Positions 7,916 to 40,376 of a stretch of DNA of 64,000 nt are shown piece after piece. The notes below the pieces were generated by a model. It worked only from the letters and a program-made list of their open reading frames with translations, searched no databases and had not been told where the DNA came from. Numbering within the stretch: the first letter of the stretch is position 1; the number at the start of each line of letters is the position of its first letter. Source of the stretch: an uncultured Nitrospirales bacterium (GTDB taxonomy: Bacteria > Nitrospirota > Nitrospiria > Nitrospirales > UBA8639); contig OY282373.1 of the NCBI GenBank assembly GCA_958295805.1, positions 1,955,001 through 2,019,000 of the forward strand, in the 5' to 3' direction. The position numbers and the translations under genes were made by a program.

Positions 7916-8344
7916 ATGGATATTGCAATCGGCTCAAATCGTCTTCGTAACACCAATGGAATTTTTGTGGCCCAGGACCAGGACTTGATCAAAATTGAAC
8001 GAAAGAGTGACGACGGGTCCCTGCTGCTGAGCATGGAGCTCTATAATCCCGCCGGATCCCAGGTCGCCAAGCTGGAGCGTAACGGATGGACATCCAACGA
8101 CCAGGATCGCTTCGAGCTTCAGACCAGTGCGGAATCGGTCATGCTGATCGATAAAACGCTGAAAGGCGTCGTCTTCTTAGTTAAAAAGGACGGCGAAAAC
8201 AGCGTGCAGGTGCCACAAGCGAAATTTTATTTACCGGGCGGCACCGCGTCTGAAGTCACGAGCGACCACTGGCACATCGGCAATAAGATGGAGTTGAAAG
8301 ACGCGGACGTTGACCTCCAGGGAGGAGCGATTGAGATTCAATAA
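7916..8344 (+). CDS. Conserved-looking hypothetical protein (142 aa)
   Basis: A 142-residue soluble protein with alternating short beta-type segments (IGSNRLRNTNGIFVAQ; SMELYNPAGSQVAKLERNGW) and no signal peptide. It ends with KMELKDADVDLQGGAIEI, suggesting an all-beta or beta-helical fold. An AAGGAG ribosome site precedes the ATG. No family is recognised. It precedes the peptidoglycan-binding protein gene by 64 bases and may share its transcript. Confidence 0.55.
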   Translation: MDIAIGSNRLRNTNGIFVAQDQDLIKIERKSDDGSLLLSMELYNPAGSQVAKLERNGWTSNDQDRFELQTSAESVMLIDKTLKGVVFLVKKDGENSVQVPQAKFYLPGGTASEVTSDHWHIGNKMELKDADVDLQGGAIEIQ

Positions 8345-11807: not shown

Positions 11808-13595
11808 TTAAAATCCTTCCGCAAAATTCCGAAGTCGCCTGCTTTCATTTGAATGCCGAAGTTTGCGTAAGGCCTTGGCTTCAATCTGCCGAATCCGCTC
11901 CCGCGTCACGCTGAAGTCCTGCCCCACCTCCTCCAACGTATGATCCGTCGCCTCCCCAATCCCAAACCGTTTCCGCAGCACCTTCTCTTCCCGCGACGTC
12001 AGCGACTCCAACGACGTCGCGATATGCCGCTGCAAGTCATATCGCACCGCCGCCTCCAACGGCGACACCGCCTTCTTGTCCTCAATAAAGTCCCCTAAAT
12101 GACTGTCTTCTTCTTCCCCAATCGGCGTCTCCAGCGAGATCGGCTCCTTCGCTATCTTCAAGATCTTCCGCACCTTCTCTAACGGCATCTCCATCCGCTC
12201 CCCGATCTCTTCCGGCGTCGGCTCCCGCCCCAACTGTTGCACCAAATGCCGCGACGTCCGCACCAGCTTGTTGATCGCTTCGATCATGTGCACCGGAATC
12301 CGTATCGTCCGCGCCTGATCCGCAATCGCCCGCGTGATCGCTTGCCGAATCCACCACGTCGCATACGTGCTGAATTTATACCCCCGCTGGTATTCAAACT
12401 TGTCCACCGCCTTCATTAACCCGATGTTCCCTTCCTGAATCAGGTCTAAAAACTGTAACCCCCGATTCGTGTATTTCTTCGCGATACTCACCACCAACCG
12501 CAAGTTCGCTTCGATCAACTCCGCTTTGCCCCGCTTCATCTTCTCTTCCGCCCCTTCCACGCCCCCCAACGCCCGCTTGAATTCCTCCGTCGGCAACCCC
12601 GTCCGCCCCGCCACCGCCTTCAGCGTCGCCGCCGCCTGACTCGCCCGCAGCACCGCTCCCATCGTCCCCTCACTCAGCCCCGCCCCGGCGCCCGCCTGCT
12701 CCCGCCTCATCTGCCGCAACACCTTCACGCCCCCCGGCCACGGCGCCCCCACTCGCCGACAACACGCCCGCAACACCCCCTCCGCCTTCCGCACTTGCCG
12801 CCCCTCCGCCTTGATCTCCGCCAACACCTCCCCCCAGACCCCCGGCTGCAACTTCAGCGCCTCCCACCGCGCCACCAAGTGCCCCTGCACCTGCTCCACC
12901 TGCTTCGCCATCCGCCCCTGCTCCCCCGCTCCCGCTTGCCGCCGCTTGACATACAGCCCCGTCAGCCGCTGGCTTAACCGCCGCACTTTCCCCAATTCTC
13001 CCACCGTCTGCCGCAGCAACTCGCTCTCATCCTCCTCCGGCCCGCCCGCCCGCTCCACGTCCTCCTCGTCGCTCGGCTCATGCACCAACTCCCGCACCCG
13101 CACCGCCCCGCTCTTCAGCCCCGCCCGCCACGCCTCCAGCCGCGCCAGCGTCAGCGGCAGCCCCACCATCGCCCTCACCAACTCCGCTTTCCCTTCCTCG
13201 ATCTTCTTCGCTAACTCGATCTCCCCTTCCCTTGTAAGAAGAGAAACGCGAGCCATTTCATTGAGGTACAAACGAACCGGATCGTCAATCCGGTTGAGCG
13301 TCCCAGGCGTCAGATCGATTTCCTTTTCAGAATCTTCTGAAGATTCATCGAGTTCATCAACTGACGTCGGCCGGCCGGAATCCCCATTGGCTTGAGCATC
13401 GAATCCTTCATTTTCAGTGAACACCGCATTCTTGAAGGGGGCTTCTCCAAGCACCGTGAGCGAGGACGAACGCTGACCGGAAGAGTTTTTTTTGATCGGT
13501 GAGATATCCTTTCTCTCATCAACGTTCATCCGTTTCGATTTTCTACCGCCCCTTATAATCGGTTTGGTATTCCCTATGACACTGGTTCTTGGCAT
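11808..13595 (-). CDS. rpoD: RNA polymerase primary sigma factor RpoD (sigma-70)
   Basis: 595 residues with all primary-sigma landmarks: region 1.2 ([11 protein letters not shown]), a non-conserved insert, region 2 ([33 protein letters not shown]), region 3, and the region 4.2 helix-turn-helix ([21 protein letters not shown]). It directs core polymerase to housekeeping promoters. Codon use is odd: in the 100 codons from 13199 to 12900, 81 end in G, against 13 of the first 45 codons of the gene. The G-rich block continues into region 2. The protein itself looks intact. Confidence 0.95.
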
Positions 13596-18975: not shown

Positions 18976-21107
<2,132 letters not shown>

Positions 21108-26511: not shown

Positions 26512-27522
26512 ATGACCCCACCCCTTACCCCTGAAAAAATCCTGCACCTCGGCATGGCGTTCTGGGAATCCAAGACCGTCTTAAGTGCCGTGGAACTCGA
26601 GGTGTTCACGACGTTGGCCAAGGGTCCCATGGACATGCACACCCTGCGAACGCAACTGGGAATCCACGAGCGCAGCGCCCGAGATTTTTTCGACGCATTG
26701 GTCGCGTTGGGCATGCTGGACCGACGCGACGGTCTCTATTCCAATGCCCCGGACGCCGACTACTTTCTCGACAAAGCCAAACCCTCGTATATAGGCGGCA
26801 TCCTGGAAATGGCAAACGCACGATTATATCGATTTTGGGGATCACTGACTACCGCGCTAAAAACCGGCCAGCCGCAAAACGAAGCCAAAGAAGGCGGCAA
26901 CTTTTTTGAAACACTGTACAACGATCCTGATCGATTGAAAAGCTTCATGCAATCCATGACCGGGATCAGCATGGGAGCCAGCATCGCCATTGCCCAAAAA
27001 TTTCCCTGGAAGGATTACCAGACGTTTATTGACGTTGGCTCGGCGCAAGGCGGATTGGTCGTCCAAGTCGGCAAGACCCACTCCCATCTCACGGGCGGCG
27101 GATTCGATCTCCCACCCACCGGTCCCCTCTTTACAGCATACGTGGAATCATTCGGATTGAGTGATCGATTCACGTTTATCCCGGGCGACTTTTTTCACGA
27201 CTCGTTTCCGAAAGCCGACGTGCTCGTCATGGGACACGTCCTCCACGACTGGGACCTGGACCAGAAAAAGCTGTTGCTCAAAAAAGCCTACGATGCCCTC
27301 CCGCAAGGCGGAGCCTTGATCGTCTTTGAAGCGCTCATTGACGACGAACGCCGCAAGAACGTCTTCGGACTCTTGATGAGCCTCAACATGCTGATCGAAC
27401 TCCCGGGAGGATTTGACTATACCGGCGCAGATTGTTCCGGTTGGATGAAAGAAACCGGCTTTCGCAAAACCCGAGTCGAACACTTGGCCGGCCCCGATTC
27501 CATGGTCATCGGACTCAAATGA
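26512..27522 (+). CDS. SAM-dependent O-methyltransferase (family 2 type)
   Basis: 336 residues from an ATG with GGAGG upstream. An N-terminal winged-helix dimerisation domain ([17 protein letters not shown] ... [16 protein letters not shown]) is followed by a Rossmann AdoMet domain ([34 protein letters not shown]). It resembles hydroxyneurosporene- or acetylserotonin-type O-methyltransferases; the substrate is unknown. The stop overlaps the following glycosyltransferase start by ATGA. Confidence 0.82.
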
Positions 27523-28583
27523 GTCTGCTCGGCAATCAAACGGAACGTGCGCGGGACACCGTCCCATCCTCCCGGGAGAAAAGTCCTTCCTTCGTGCTCC
27601 TATCCGTCGTCGTCCCCTGCTTCAACGAGGAAGCGGTCATACCTGAGACGCATCGCCGTCTCGTCAACGTCCTCGAAAACGTACCCGGGATCGATTTCGA
27701 GATCGTCTACGTTGACGACGGCAGCCACGACGCCACGCTGGACCTGCTGCGGGGACTCCAGCGCACCGACCCGCGCGTGCGGATACTCGCCTTGTCCCGC
27801 AATTTCGGACATCAGCTCGCTCTCACCGCAGGGTTGGCCGAAGCCGCCGGCAACGTCGTCGCCATCATCGACGCTGACCTGCAAGACCCTCCAGAAACCA
27901 TCCTGGAGATGCTAGACCGTTGGCGACGGGGCGCCGACGTCGCCTACGGCGTGCGGGCCGAGCGCGAGGGTGAAACGGCCTTCAAACGCTGGACGGCTAC
28001 GGTGTTCTATAGGCTCCTCGCTCGCATCGCCAACGTCTCCATTCCGCTCAACGCCGGTGATTTCCGGCTGATGGATCGTAAGGTGGTGACTGCGTTCCTC
28101 GACATGCCGGAACGCGACCGCTTCGTGCGCGGCATGGTGGCCTGGACCGGCTTTCGCCAAGAGCCCGTTTCCTACAGGCGGAACGCTCGCGTGGCAGGCG
28201 AAACCAAGTATCCGTTCAAAAAGATGCTGCGCCTGGCCGTAGACAGCATTCTGTCATTTTCCCTCGTGCCGTTGCGCCTGGCGACCTGGAGCGGCTTTCT
28301 TGCCGCCGGGCTGGCCCTGTCGGGCATCGTCTATGCCGGCGGGATGCGCATCTTCACCAACGTCTGGGTCACCGGCTGGACGCTGCTGTTCATCGCCATC
28401 CTGTTCCTCGGCGGCGTACAGCTCGTGCTCATCGGCGTGCTCGGTGAATACCTGGGGCGCATCTACGCCGAGGTGAAGCGACGTCCACTCTATCTCGTCA
28501 AGGAGCGGGTAGGATTCGAGCCGGCAAACCAGCCTGCGTCCGCCGTTCAGCAAACGATTCGGGAAGAGCCGGTGAATGAATAG
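27519..28583 (+). CDS. Family 2 glycosyltransferase, DPM1/GtrB type, membrane-anchored
   Basis: 354 residues. A GT-A catalytic domain ([33 protein letters not shown] as the metal-binding DxD) is followed by two C-terminal membrane helices ([39 protein letters not shown]). This family transfers a sugar from a nucleotide to polyprenyl phosphate on the inner face of the membrane. The adjacent flippase-like gene would fit export of the product. Confidence 0.87.
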
Positions 28584-29595
28584 GACGTGGACGCGGTGGC
28601 TCAAGCTGTCAATCGGCTTGGCCACGACCGCGGGGTTTGTCTGGCTGCTCGCGCGCGGGCTGAACCTGGACGCACTGGGCCGAGCGTTCGCAGGCTTGTC
28701 CGTCTCAGCCGTCGTCCTTGCTCTGTCCTTCATGGCCGCCGGTCACGCGGGACGCATCGTGCGCTGGTGGCTCCTGTTGCGTGCCCTCGAACCGAGCCTG
28801 CCGCTCGGCGACTGTGTCCGGCCGTTCCTCACCGGCATCGCAGTCAACAACGTGATGCCGTTCCGGGCGGGCGACGCGCTTCGCGTCCTGGGGTTTCGTC
28901 GGCAACTCCGGTCTCCGGCCATGCGGGTGCTGGGGACCCTCGTGATTGAGCGCGCCTTGGACTTGATCGTCTTGTCGGGAATTTTCTTTCTAAGCCTGCT
29001 CGGATTGCCGGCCGACGCGTTCCCGCGCAGCTTCGTCGTCGCGACGGCATGGCTCGGGGGCGCGGGCGTGGCCGCCATACTTGGCGCGATGCTGTTCCTG
29101 CCCCTGTTTGAGCGGTTTCGGGACCGCTTGCCGGGACGCCGTTTCTTCGCCGGCCGGCGCTGGACGGAAGCCGTTTCCAAGCACGGCAAGCATCTGGCCG
29201 AGGCCATCGGCCTCGTGCGCTCCGTGCCGAGAATGCTCATGCTCATCGGGCTATCGGTCGTGGTCTGGCTCTGTGAAGGCATGACGTTCGTCACCGTAGC
29301 CGTGGCACTCAAGGCCGACGTCGCGCCACTTGGCCCATGGCTGTCGCTCGCGGCCGGCACCCTCGCGACGGCCATTCCCAGTTCGCCCGGCTACATCGGA
29401 ACGTTCGATTATTTCGCCGCCCAAGGCCTCGCCGCGTACGGCGCCTCACCTGAAGTCGCCGCGGCCCTCGCACTGACCGTCCACGCACTGTGGATACCGT
29501 TGACCGTGGTCGGGCTACTCTCCTACTGGCTCCCTCATGCCGTTGACCAGCGGAAAGAAGAAACCGATTCCCCAAGTCACGTGCATGGTAGCTAA
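28576..29595 (+). CDS. Flippase-like lysylphosphatidylglycerol synthase TM-region protein (UPF0104)
   Basis: 339 residues with about eight hydrophobic helices and the family markers (RALEPSLPLGDCVRPFLTGIAVNNVMPFRAGDALR split over two helices; PSSPGYIGTFDYFAAQGL). Related proteins act as integral-membrane flippases or aminoacyl-lipid transporters. It overlaps the glycosyltransferase gene by eight bases. Its 3' end overlaps a glycosyltransferase remnant on the other strand. Confidence 0.82.
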   Translation: MNRTWTRWLKLSIGLATTAGFVWLLARGLNLDALGRAFAGLSVSAVVLALSFMAAGHAGRIVRWWLLLRALEPSLPLGDCVRPFLTGIAVNNVMPFRAGDALRVLGFRRQLRSPAMRVLGTLVIERALDLIVLSGIFFLSLLGLPADAFPRSFVVATAWLGGAGVAAILGAMLFLPLFERFRDRLPGRRFFAGRRWTEAVSKHGKHLAEAIGLVRSVPRMLMLIGLSVVVWLCEGMTFVTVAVALKADVAPLGPWLSLAAGTLATAIPSSPGYIGTFDYFAAQGLAAYGASPEVAAALALTVHALWIPLTVVGLLSYWLPHAVDQRKEETDSPSHVHGS

Positions 29596-29826: not shown

Positions 29827-31098
29827 CTACTCATCGAAGCTGACCTCGGCTTCCCAGAGGCGACCTTCGTCAGTGTATTGGCCGGTGGAGATGCGGGCGA
29901 TGTCGTAGTCGGGCAGGTTGCGCACCGCAACGCATTTTTGACCTTTACGCTTGGCATAATCGGCGAAAAGAAAGTTCACGTTGTCGAAACCGTACTGTTG
30001 ACGAGGTTCCGGCAGATCATTTGCGTCACGGGGAACGACGTGCAGAAAGAAGGGGGTATCTGTGTTCGTGCATTCTTTCCCGACGTATATCAGGGTGCCA
30101 TCCTTGTTGAAGTAGACATCCCAGTCGGAAGCAATGATCGGGCTGCCGAGAGCCTCTTTCTCGTACGGGTTATCATAAAGAATCCGGTCATACAAAAAAA
30201 TTCGTCGGTTGTCCGGCGTCAGGAGGGCAGGCACCCTCTCGCGATCGAGGGTGATGACATAATCAGCAAGATCACGCCTTCCTCGTATAAGTAAGGGAAA
30301 GCCGGACTTCTCGTATTCAATGAAACTGCCGGTAAGGAAGTAACTTGACGCGAGTGACGCCCCACCATACCTCGCGTCGGTCTGTATCCCGTCAATGTAC
30401 ACAACGGACTCGCCAACCATGTTCCGTATGACCTCGAAGTCCTTCAGCATGTCATGTTCTGCTCTGGCCTCCCCGGAATCATGGCCGACGCCGGCCATCT
30501 CCGCGCTGGAAAGAACGAACAGCAACAGCGCGGCAACGGCAAAAGTGGAGACGACTTGCTCGCTTGACCGCTTTCGTATGTAAAGCAGCGCCAGAGAGAC
30601 TGCGACGAGCGGAATGCCGATATAAAACAGGCTCTGAAAATCATGGAACGCGACGTGATTACGTAGCGGCAAGCCCCAGCAAAAGCCTGACGTCAACAAC
30701 GTCGCCAGCAGCAGCTTATGACGGATGAAACCCAAGCCGATGAGGCAAACCGTGACGACCAACGCTGCCGCAATCACCGCGAGAGAGTCTTGTGGCTCCA
30801 CAACGGTCCATTTGTCGTATGGACTCTCATATGGACTCAAAAAGGCCGGCAGCGTCATCATGGCAATGCGGTAGAACTGGCCTCCGAGGAAATACCCCCA
30901 CTCTCGGGCTTCGGCATACTGAGCATTGAACTCGTCATTTTGCCCAAAACGATAAGACATTGAGTGGATTGTAGGCAGGTCAGTCAGCGGAATCCGTCGG
31001 TCAAGCGCGACGTACTCGTTGACCACGTTGAAAGACAAAACCGCTGCGCCGAAACACAGCGCAACAACGCCGAGTCTCAGATAGCGACTGGACAGCAC
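29827..31098 (-). CDS. Membrane protein, C-terminal half of a poly-G-split gene
   Basis: 423 residues from a GTG at 31098. Several transmembrane helices (YLRLGVVALCFGAAVLSF; VIAAALVVTVCLIGLGFI) are followed by a large extracytoplasmic C-terminal domain of about 230 residues. In the frame of this half, codons upstream of 31098 stay open through RLVRRCVAAV and NFAPWRSAG right up to the G tract. It is therefore the downstream half of the gene whose first half is 31151-31819. If the tract were one G shorter, the joined product would be 663 residues, with the layout of a large polyprenol-sugar-dependent membrane glycosyltransferase (inferred). Confidence 0.65.
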   Translation of the reverse strand: MLSSRYLRLGVVALCFGAAVLSFNVVNEYVALDRRIPLTDLPTIHSMSYRFGQNDEFNAQYAEAREWGYFLGGQFYRIAMMTLPAFLSPYESPYDKWTVVEPQDSLAVIAAALVVTVCLIGLGFIRHKLLLATLLTSGFCWGLPLRNHVAFHDFQSLFYIGIPLVAVSLALLYIRKRSSEQVVSTFAVAALLLFVLSSAEMAGVGHDSGEARAEHDMLKDFEVIRNMVGESVVYIDGIQTDARYGGASLASSYFLTGSFIEYEKSGFPLLIRGRRDLADYVITLDRERVPALLTPDNRRIFLYDRILYDNPYEKEALGSPIIASDWDVYFNKDGTLIYVGKECTNTDTPFFLHVVPRDANDLPEPRQQYGFDNVNFLFADYAKRKGQKCVAVRNLPDYDIARISTGQYTDEGRLWEAEVSFDE

Positions 31099-31150
31099 CG
31101 CAGCAACACAGCGCCTGACGAGCCGACCCGCCGAACGCCAAGGCGCAAAA

Positions 31151-31819
31151 TTACCCCCCCCCCCCCCCCCCCACTCGGCTCAGCTCGCTCGCCATCCCCA
31201 GGACAATAAACGGCAGCAGCAGCGCATAGACCTGCCAGCAAAGCAGCAGCGCCGCGCACGACTTCACCAGTAGCTGTCGAAAGCGGTCCTCCTGGACAAA
31301 AAGAACCATACCGTGAAAGGTCAGCATCACGCCGAACAGGCCAGGTACGGCGTCGGGAGCGAAAGCGTCGCTGTAGTACAGCGCGTGCCAGGACGAAAAC
31401 GCCACCAGCGTCGCCGCCAGCGCAATCCACCCCTCGCCCCCGGTGAGCCGGGCGAGCGCCAGGTAGGCCAGCACTGCGCTGCCGGCGAAAAGGAGCAGGG
31501 TCACAATCCGCGCCGCGTAAATTTGCGCCGACAGATCGCCCTCGAAGGGGAGGACGGCCAGCTTGACCAGCGCGTAGCTGCCGATCGGCCAACGCGCATA
31601 GGTGACATACAGAGGAGCGCCGTCGGCATCCAGGGTGCGGGAGATGAACAGCAGGAAATGATGTTCCGGGGACAGGTTCACGGCCTGGGCCAAATGCTGC
31701 GAGGTTAGCCAGTCATGGTGCCCGGCCCGGTAAAAATGGCCCCGGTCGTGGCCAAACAGAAACACCGTTGACAACGCCAGCACGAGCAGAACTAGCGACA
31801 GCGCCACCCGTTTATGCAA
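31151..31819 (-). CDS. Membrane protein, N-terminal half of a poly-G-split gene
   Basis: 222 residues from a TTG at 31819. It has an N-terminal helix (LSLVLLVLALSTVFLFG) followed by a short lumenal segment and at least three more helices. It ends ...ELSRV plus six glycines and a TAA created directly by the end of the 19-G run. The reading frame is broken there. Acidic and His residues after helix 1 (HDRGHFYRAGHHDW) recall GT-C glycosyltransferases, but family assignment is tentative. Confidence 0.65.
   Translation of the reverse strand: MHKRVALSLVLLVLALSTVFLFGHDRGHFYRAGHHDWLTSQHLAQAVNLSPEHHFLLFISRTLDADGAPLYVTYARWPIGSYALVKLAVLPFEGDLSAQIYAARIVTLLLFAGSAVLAYLALARLTGGEGWIALAATLVAFSSWHALYYSDAFAPDAVPGLFGVMLTFHGMVLFVQEDRFRQLLVKSCAALLLCWQVYALLLPFIVLGMASELSRVGGGGGG
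31154..31172. repeat. Homopolymeric tract of 19 C (poly-G on the coding strand)
   Basis: Nineteen consecutive C on the plus strand, equal to G19 in the membrane-protein gene. Such tracts change length by slipped-strand mispairing. At G19 translation stops right after the tract; at G18 or G21 the two halves would join in frame. Confidence 0.9.
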
Positions 31820-31928
31820 TCTCGCTAAAGTCAGACGAACCCTCGCGTTTGAAGATGGTGAACGTCCGTGGTTACCCCAAGAGTATCTTTATCACATAAT
31901 CATTGAGTCAACCAACGGCTGAGCGTGG

Positions 31929-32108
31929 TCAAGGCTGTTCGCGCACAATGGCGTTCAAGCATGACGCGCACAGACAATCCGCAAACCGTTCAGCAATGAC
32001 CGCGTAGTGGGCGTCGGAAACCGGAACGTCGGTACACCAGCACCCGTACAGTCCGCACGTGAACGCACGGCCGCACCGTTCGCACGTTTTCTTGAGATTG
32101 CGTTTCAC
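31929..32108 (-). CDS. Cysteine-rich CWC family protein (59 aa)
   Basis: A short protein with eight cysteines: CERCGRAFTC, YGCWC and DCLCASC. This matches the Cys-rich CWC family, thought to bind metal. The GTG start lies three bases after the cobS stop, so it is translationally coupled to the end of the cobT-cobS run. The function within B12 metabolism is unknown. Confidence 0.7.
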   Translation of the reverse strand: MKRNLKKTCERCGRAFTCGLYGCWCTDVPVSDAHYAVIAERFADCLCASCLNAIVREQP

Positions 32109-32111
32109 GGG

Positions 32112-32888
32112 TCAGGACGCCGCCAGCATCAGGATGGACGGGGACATGATGAGAAACAGGATCTCCGTCACTTCATTGATCGCCCCAAGCACGTCTCCCG
32201 TGATGCCGCCAAAGACGCGGGAGCACGCAAAGACCATGCCGCGCGCCACGAGCACCCCGAGACCAAGGAGGAATCCACCCGCCAGCCATCCAAAGGTTCC
32301 ACAGAGAACGAGTCCGGTCCAGACGGTGGCACACAAGACGTCCTTCAAGCGGATTTCGTTAAAAAAATCCGAGGCAAGGCCACCACTCGCCCGGGCGTGT
32401 GAACTGCCGAACGCGCTTACCACCATGGCACATCTCCCCATCACCGGCATACACGCCAAGAGAAAGAGTCCGTCGGCGGAGGGCAGATTCAGGATTCCGG
32501 CGAACCGTAGCCCGAGGCTCAACGCCAATCCCGTCGCCCCCAAGGCGCCGATGCGTCCGTCCTTCATGACGGCCAACCGCTCCGGCGGACTCCCTCTCTT
32601 ACCCAGGCCGTCAAGGGTATCAGCCAGCCCGTCCTGGTGTAACCCTCCGGTTAGGACAACCAAGCTGCACAAGACCAGCAATGCCGTCATCTCCGGCGTC
32701 AACGCCACGTGCAACGCGGCGTCTCCGGCAGCGAGCATTCCCCCGATGACGGCACCGACCGCGGGATACCACTGCATGGAAGAGGCCATTTCTCTTGGAA
32801 TCGGCCGAACGTGCGAGCCCCCGTCAAGGGGAATGATCGTAAGAAAGTGCCAGGCCAACGCGGCGGATCTGATCATGGGCGTCCTCAT
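32112..32888 (-). CDS. cobS: Adenosylcobinamide-GDP ribazoletransferase (cobalamin synthase)
   Basis: 258 residues, polytopic inner-membrane enzyme. It joins adenosylcobinamide-GDP with alpha-ribazole (product of CobT) to give adenosylcobalamin. Family marks: the early LAWHFLTIIPL, the acidic GGLHQDGLADTLDGLG, and RLAVMKDGRIGALG. GAGGG before the ATG at 32888 supports this start; a longer frame would overlap cobT. Nucleotide-loop assembly and salvage role. Confidence 0.92.
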   Translation of the reverse strand: MRTPMIRSAALAWHFLTIIPLDGGSHVRPIPREMASSMQWYPAVGAVIGGMLAAGDAALHVALTPEMTALLVLCSLVVLTGGLHQDGLADTLDGLGKRGSPPERLAVMKDGRIGALGATGLALSLGLRFAGILNLPSADGLFLLACMPVMGRCAMVVSAFGSSHARASGGLASDFFNEIRLKDVLCATVWTGLVLCGTFGWLAGGFLLGLGVLVARGMVFACSRVFGGITGDVLGAINEVTEILFLIMSPSILMLAAS

Positions 32889-36585: not shown

Positions 36586-36597
36586 CGTAATGGACAC

Positions 36598-36785
36598 AAC
36601 CGACAATCGGGTTTCCTGACTTGCGGATCCCAACTTCTCTGCGCCTTCCCATGAACCTTTCGTTCACAGTGGCCTTGTGCAGATTCACTCCCCGCTTACA
36701 GTGGCGGCACCGTGATGGCTTTGCACCATCTTCCCCGTCGTTGTCAGCTTGCTTCCTGTAGAAACGCCTCCTTAGGTTGTTATAC
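36598..36785 (-). ncRNA. Cobalamin riboswitch upstream of the btuB-like gene
   Basis: The minus strand carries the conserved cobalamin core: GGGGAAGATGGTGCAAAGCC, then GCCGCCACTGTAAGCGGGG (the B12-box region), and a 3' GCAAGTCAGGAAACC. Adenosylcobalamin binding would lower receptor expression. The limits are approximate. Confidence 0.88.
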
Positions 36786-40017: not shown

Positions 40018-40134
40018 ATTGCACCCGCGTCTTCATCCTCACCCGTTCCCCAGCCCACGAGGGTTCGAAGGTCGTGAATCCCGTTCGATCATCCCCGGGA
40101 CCGCTTGGCCGAGGGGAACATCGAAACGGCATTC

Positions 40135-40325
40135 TTTGCCCGGGTCGGTCTTCTGGCTTCTGGATCCTGACCTACTTCCCGCGCCTTCCCGTCAAATACG
40201 GCATCCTTGACAGTGGCACGTGCGGGGTTCGTTTCCAGTTACAGCGGCGGGACCGCGAAGGACTTGCACCTTCTTCCCTATCCCCGGGCATCCATGGATA
40301 TGTAGAGAAGAACCGGACTCTAGGG
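40135..40325 (-). ncRNA. Cobalamin riboswitch upstream of btuF-btuC-btuD
   Basis: Minus-strand core GGGAAGAAGGTGCAAGTCC, then CCCGCCGCTGTAACTGG and the 3' element CAGGATCCAGAAGCCAGAAG. It matches the cobalamin aptamer. It fills most of the 391-base gap between the hydrolase gene end and btuF. Limits are approximate. Confidence 0.88.
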
Positions 40326-40376
40326 AACCCGAAGTCCATTTGTCAAGCAGACGGGCTTCCTGATTTTTTGGAAACG

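Follow-up and report, generated by a model that had tools for sequence, protein, structure and literature searches.

Most of what is known of phase variation through poly-G tracts comes from host-adapted pathogens and commensals, and slipped-strand mispairing at replication is the established mechanism for such tracts. In Campylobacter, Helicobacter and Neisseria one-base changes in a G/C homopolymer that lies inside the coding sequence switch the reading frame of surface glycan and surface protein genes, with several such loci per genome. The G/C tracts of Campylobacter peak at 9-10 nucleotides, those of 13-15 being rare, and PhasomeIt applies a threshold of 7 or more G/C (PMC6321876). Phase variation is also described for the gtr modules of Salmonella, which combine a GtrA flippase, a GtrB donor-lipid synthase and a GtrC glucosyltransferase (PMC2909390, PMC3688519), and whose switch is DNA methylation at the promoter. 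Here we describe a locus from an uncultured Nitrospirales bacterium, a member of an order that includes sponge-associated nitrite oxidisers (PMC10579370). The locus is probably a slipped-strand phase-variable gene, OFF as assembled, for a GT-C-like surface-glycan enzyme. With the Campylobacter, Helicobacter and Neisseria genes it would share the homopolymer inside the coding sequence, the one-base frame switching, the classes of targets and the presence of several loci per genome. It differs from them in that the tracts are longer (13-22, against the Campylobacter peak of 9-10), in that the host lies outside the documented host-adapted groups and in that it is read from one assembly.

The locus lies in a stretch of 64,000 nucleotides (the window) of a genome assembled as one contig of 2.90 Mb. 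A first-pass annotation had reported a run of 19 C on the plus strand within a minus-strand membrane-protein gene, and the run is present at exactly this length at 31154..31172, i.e. as G19 on the minus strand, a putative slippage switch. No other G or C run in the window exceeds 7, and under a first-order Markov model runs of at least 19 are expected about 2e-6 times per window and about 1e-4 times per genome. The frame leading into the tract is a 222-aa ORF encoding a multi-pass membrane segment (31151..31819, minus strand), which starts with TTG at 31819 and ends in VGGGGGG-TAA directly at the tract, just as first described. Past the tract an alternate frame had been said to stay open into a 423-residue ORF; we find it to be open for 441 codons on the minus strand, from 31152 to 29827, with the listed 423-aa ORF (31098..29827) lying inside it. 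Both assignments draw on the ORFs and on identity to a paralogue. The 3' half encodes additional membrane helices and a soluble domain at the C-terminus; its frame has no stop in 441 codons, the remaining frames having 11 and 21, and the probability that a random frame of this composition would stay open for so long is about 5e-8.

Simulation of tract lengths from 12 to 23 gave products of 661-664 aa for G12, G15, G18 and G21, of 222 aa for the actual G19, of 247 aa for G20 and of 220-248 aa for all remaining lengths. This agrees with the earlier proposal that the loss of one G or the gain of two would yield a single protein of 663 residues with six glycines. The placement of the tract is thus such that, over the simulated range, a change in length toggles between a full-length and a truncated product. 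Its position in the middle of the gene rather than close to the start counts against a contingency switch, as does the fact that the paralogue described below has no long tract there. Hydropathy places it in a short K/R-rich loop between helices, for which reason extra glycines should be tolerated there.

The same genome encodes an uninterrupted paralogue of 766 aa in a single frame (G000:C1:2237047-2239344). Its residues 25-221 are 65% identical to the 5' half, whereas the 3' half matches its residues 245-589 with 43% and its C-terminus (residues 688-766) with 52% identity. Across the junction the window has SELSRV-glycines-NFAPWRSAGRLVRRCVAAV where the paralogue has RELNRARRLSAPPSLAGRIKRCVAAP. 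Given that the paralogue has neither a long tract nor a stop at the break, and that the alignment spans it, the two halves are by this comparison one gene, and the tract is extra sequence in the short basic loop that this single gene encodes there. The alternative of two separate genes is ruled out by the intact paralogue. Tract-free homologues that end with the first half, which the first-pass annotation held would speak against a switch, were looked for, and the opposite was found, since the paralogue reads on.

In the divergence comparison the amino-acid identity to the paralogue is 64% for the 5' half and 47% for the 3' half, with GC3 values of 0.79 and 0.64, respectively. Changes in the 3' half are concentrated at third positions, and the estimated dN and dS are about 0.27 and 0.86 for the 5' half and 0.34 and 1.41 for the last 75 codons. 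The divergence shows constraint. Selection acting today would explain the open 3' half, as would a frameshift of very recent date, and the open state is by itself no proof of use. Comparison of the tract between related genomes had been proposed as a check, and the split-gene family was absent from all 48 other family genomes searched, leaving nothing to compare. G10 runs occur in the paralogue and three tandem homologues. Those at L037:4844-4853, 12030-12039 and 19288-19297 (minus strand) lie in tandem repeats of about 7.2 kb with surface-enzyme genes, upstream of the first predicted helix and with the same length in 3 of 3 repeats.

To what kind of protein the joined halves belong is suggested chiefly by topology and context. 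Hydropathy predicts 9-10 helices, the first of which is followed by a loop of about 80 residues, and a soluble region at the C-terminus, an outline that is GT-C-like; enzymes of the GT-C / PMT_2 kind have 8-13 membrane helices and a large early extracytoplasmic loop. The earlier description as glycosyltransferase-like rests on this topology and on the neighbouring genes; it finds no counterpart among Pfam families, none of which matched the 5' half, the 3' half or the paralogue at E<=0.01. As the AF2 model of the full-length protein is also unusable (pLDDT 35), we treat the term glycosyltransferase as inferred. The predicted helices (about 9-10), the long second loop and the soluble C-terminal domain would be likenesses to GT-C / PMT_2 enzymes, including the LA_3751/LA_3752 family, and PMT_2 is matched by other proteins of the genome that end in this same domain. 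The window protein and its paralogue differ from these in matching no Pfam family, and hhalign comparison with the PMT_2-matching proteins gave an alignment limited to the C-terminal domain.

The core of this C-terminal domain, with the signature FFLHV...YGFDN...TGQ, spans about 76 aa (29842..30051, minus strand) and is in none of the libraries searched. Its fuller motif, FFLHVxPxDxxDLPxxRKQYGFDN...LPDYxIxRIRTGQ, marks a domain of about 76-110 aa that occurs at 19-28 places in this genome (e.g. L037, L039, L036 and L044), appended to membrane proteins matching the arylsulfotransferase, GDSL hydrolase or PMT_2 families, and in none of 295 other genomes of the phylum that were searched. AF2 modelled the domain alone with a pLDDT of 84.6, and comparison of this model with the PDB returned nothing at E<0.001, only a loose beta-sandwich resemblance. 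Viral, plasmid and PDB sequence searches made in the split-gene analysis were likewise negative.

Convergent with the split gene is a pair of genes whose presence the first-pass annotation had noted and which profile matches confirm. One encodes a GT2 of the GtrB / polyisoprenyl-phosphate glycosyltransferase type (27432..28583, plus strand; PF00535), which matches PDB 5ekp (sll0501) with E=2e-89 over residues 52-363, the homology beginning at about residue 52; it is likely to be a donor-lipid synthase. The other, overlapping it by 8 bases, encodes a flippase-like membrane protein of the LPG_synthase_TM / TIGR00374 type (28576..29595, plus strand; PF03706 E=1.6e-43, TIGR00374 above cut-off). 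By analogy, the closest functional counterpart is the phase-variable gtr module of Salmonella, in that a GT2 of the GtrB type, a protein resembling a flippase and a large multi-pass membrane enzyme are neighbours and variable expression is proposed. The GtrB-type enzyme is identified through 5ekp, whereas GtrA and GtrC were not found in an operon with it: the flippase belongs to LPG_synthase_TM and not to the GtrA family, and the third gene is convergent, lies outside the operon and has no recognisable GtrC identity. A further difference is the switch itself, which here would be a homopolymer. Taken by association, the GT-C-like outline, the GtrB-like and flippase-like neighbours and the company that the C-terminal domain keeps make a surface-glycan-modifying role the most likely one for the split protein.

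A scan of the genome starting from runs of G12 recovered nine G/C tracts, of 13, 19, 15, 19, 19 (the window), 22, 22, 16 and 18 nucleotides, each length being one value from a single assembly, whose consensus lengths err in such sequence. Runs of at least 13 are thus observed nine times against about 0.2 expected per genome under the first-order Markov model. Shorter G/C runs number seven of length 9, seven of length 10 and two of length 11, and a scan for A/T runs of 12 found none in the genome. The context of each tract was read on both strands; by inspection of the nine loci, most tracts lie at genes for surface proteins or surface sugars. In one, C22 directly follows the AGGAGG..ATG of a 292-aa membrane protein and is in frame; homologues of this protein were looked for in the relatives and none was found, while two of the C-terminal-domain proteins have an N-terminal part homologous to it. 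After a near-identical AGGAGG..ATG leader, C16 precedes an autotransporter and puts it out of frame from that ATG; because an overlapping GTG would be in frame, the state of this gene is ambiguous. At the gene for a 1788-aa protein weakly similar to He_PIG, a further G19 separates AAGGAG..ATG from the signal peptide and puts it out of frame, an ATG directly 3' of the tract offering an alternative start. Two tracts stand six bases 5' of a start: G18 ahead of the point where an ORF of >2000 aa with He_PIG repeats could first begin, and G13 ahead of the first ATG of an ORF of >1960 aa that gives 13 matches to Calx-beta and has its signal peptide about 130 codons further on. A bacterial sugar transferase gene (PF02397) that has LRR, Wzz-like and ligase-like genes downstream carries G15 at its 3' end, and a B12-radical-SAM gene next to glycosyltransferases carries G22 close to its own 3' end. 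For at least one of the nine tracts, the G19 in the DNA next to a copy of IS30, no role is evident. By their sequence context, seven or eight of the nine tracts fit contingency loci.

The leader shared by the 292-aa protein and the autotransporter is a duplication, comprising the 3' end of lgt and an RBS-ATG-polyC segment (L014:5890-6012 and L014:7170-7294), that stands before two unrelated surface genes. One copy has C22 and the other C16, which shows, if indirectly, that the tract has changed in length since the duplication. The frame of the autotransporter shifts again near 8110 (L014:8040-8180) in a place free of homopolymers, through sequence error or decay. Next to the G22 of the B12-radical-SAM gene (L013:6040-6700) there follows a frame that reads as glycosyltransferase-like, with in-frame stops. 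The IS30-family element (L012:5010-6040, L185-L196) is present in at least 13 copies, often at REP-like GGATTC/TTCCCG palindromes, and two of these border G tracts (G19 and G11), both in target DNA. We rejected the idea that the tract is part of an IS element, given that the G19 beside IS30 is target DNA and that other IS30 copies lack it.

A lone assembly accident is ruled out by the nine tracts and by the paralogue, from which the halves are one gene. A subtler error of length, by which almost every cell would in truth carry 18 (or 21) G and an intact gene with no meaningful switching, draws some strength from the fact that consensus errors are commonest at long homopolymers and that the paralogue shows the uninterrupted gene to be the natural state. 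However, the tract is long whatever its exact length, eight others of 13-22 nt accompany it, the duplicated leader carries two different lengths, and a run of 18-21 nt would itself be expected to slip, G/C runs of at least 7 being counted as phase-variable by PhasomeIt (PMC6321876). We hence consider this explanation unlikely, though it is the strongest of the rivals.

Less probable again is that slippage has fixed a frameshift in one of two redundant paralogues and that we see a recently dead gene decaying as a pseudogene. Against it stand the 441 codons free of stops, the excess of changes at third positions, the conservation of the C-terminal domain and the fact that a one-base change in the tract would revert the lesion; in its favour are the intact paralogue and the greater divergence and lower GC3 of the 3' half (47% vs 64% identity, 0.64 vs 0.79). 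We give marginally less weight still to programmed or leaky decoding, in which slippage of RNA polymerase or of the ribosome along the G run lets every cell make the short and the full-length product from one DNA sequence. Homopolymers can be slippery for both transcription and translation, and the frame changes exactly at the tract, but the characteristic motifs of transcriptional slippage are runs of A or T (PMC3711429). Moreover, one would expect a conserved recoding signal of fixed length, whereas the paralogue has none and the tracts of this genome vary from 13 to 22.

The preferred reading remains phase variation, given that slipped-strand mispairing is established at tracts of this kind and that G19 exceeds the slippage-prone length set by the PhasomeIt threshold of at least 7 G/C. 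The on/off switching first suggested for this locus gains support from the paralogue and from the eight further G/C tracts, its glycosyltransferase part resting on topology and context. From the tract, the frames, the one-gene origin and the genome-wide tract set, which the analysis shows, we infer slippage in cells, an enzymatic activity and a phenotype along the following lines. Mispairing during replication would add or remove G residues, and lengths divisible by three (15, 18, 21) would fuse the two halves, giving a product of about 663 aa whose oligoglycine, variable in length, sits in a loop that is positively charged and probably cytoplasmic. With any other length a stop would fall within or just after the tract and leave the first membrane helices only, so that the assembled genome would represent the OFF state. 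In the ON state the enzyme would use a sugar-lipid that the neighbouring GtrB-like GT2 synthesises and the flippase-like protein beside it probably flips, and switching would alter the surface glycan in a subpopulation. The window gene would then be one of about eight tract-bearing surface loci in the genome.

This is most likely a known mechanism in a new place, namely an environmental Nitrospirales lineage. A literature search for homopolymer phase variation in Nitrospira or sponge symbionts found no publication in the library of papers that it covered. The chances appear evenly balanced that the roughly eight G/C tracts constitute a true phasome, stochastically switching giant adhesins, the autotransporter and a lineage-unique set of surface-modifying membrane enzymes that have the C-terminal domain in common. 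If so, poly-G phase variation would extend to the phylum of the nitrite oxidisers, presumably serving host contact, phage escape or both. A well-supported multi-locus set of this kind would show surface bet-hedging in this lineage of chemolithoautotrophs and point to immune-like or phage pressure. Switching at tracts would also account for a class of genes that look broken in the assemblies of this genus, each tract predicting a specific on or off state.

Among relatives, 10 of 14 members of the genus and 7 of 35 other genomes of the family have G/C runs of at least 13 (Fisher p ~0.002). This enrichment is a tendency and not a rule, as some of the tracts are at the ends of contigs where the assembly is fragmented, and one genome of the genus that is complete lacks such runs. 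Two further members of the genus carry a tract beside the start of an exported protein, as G13 followed by TATG (L069) and as C13 before a signal peptide (L071). Homologues of the sugar transferase in two genus members have no run of at least 8 at them. A first contig scan found no relative. Near named genomes are Nitrospira sp. CO36405bin_1 (WTGX01000004.1) and Nitrospirales bacterium p16x63bins.32. In a CobT-based scan the two nearest named genomes (L093 and L094) had CbiB after CobS, where the window has the glycan locus instead (29827-32112), so that the glycan locus marks a point of insertion or rearrangement here. The window also contains two ordinary cobalamin riboswitches, at 36589-36767 and 40126-40347 (minus strand).
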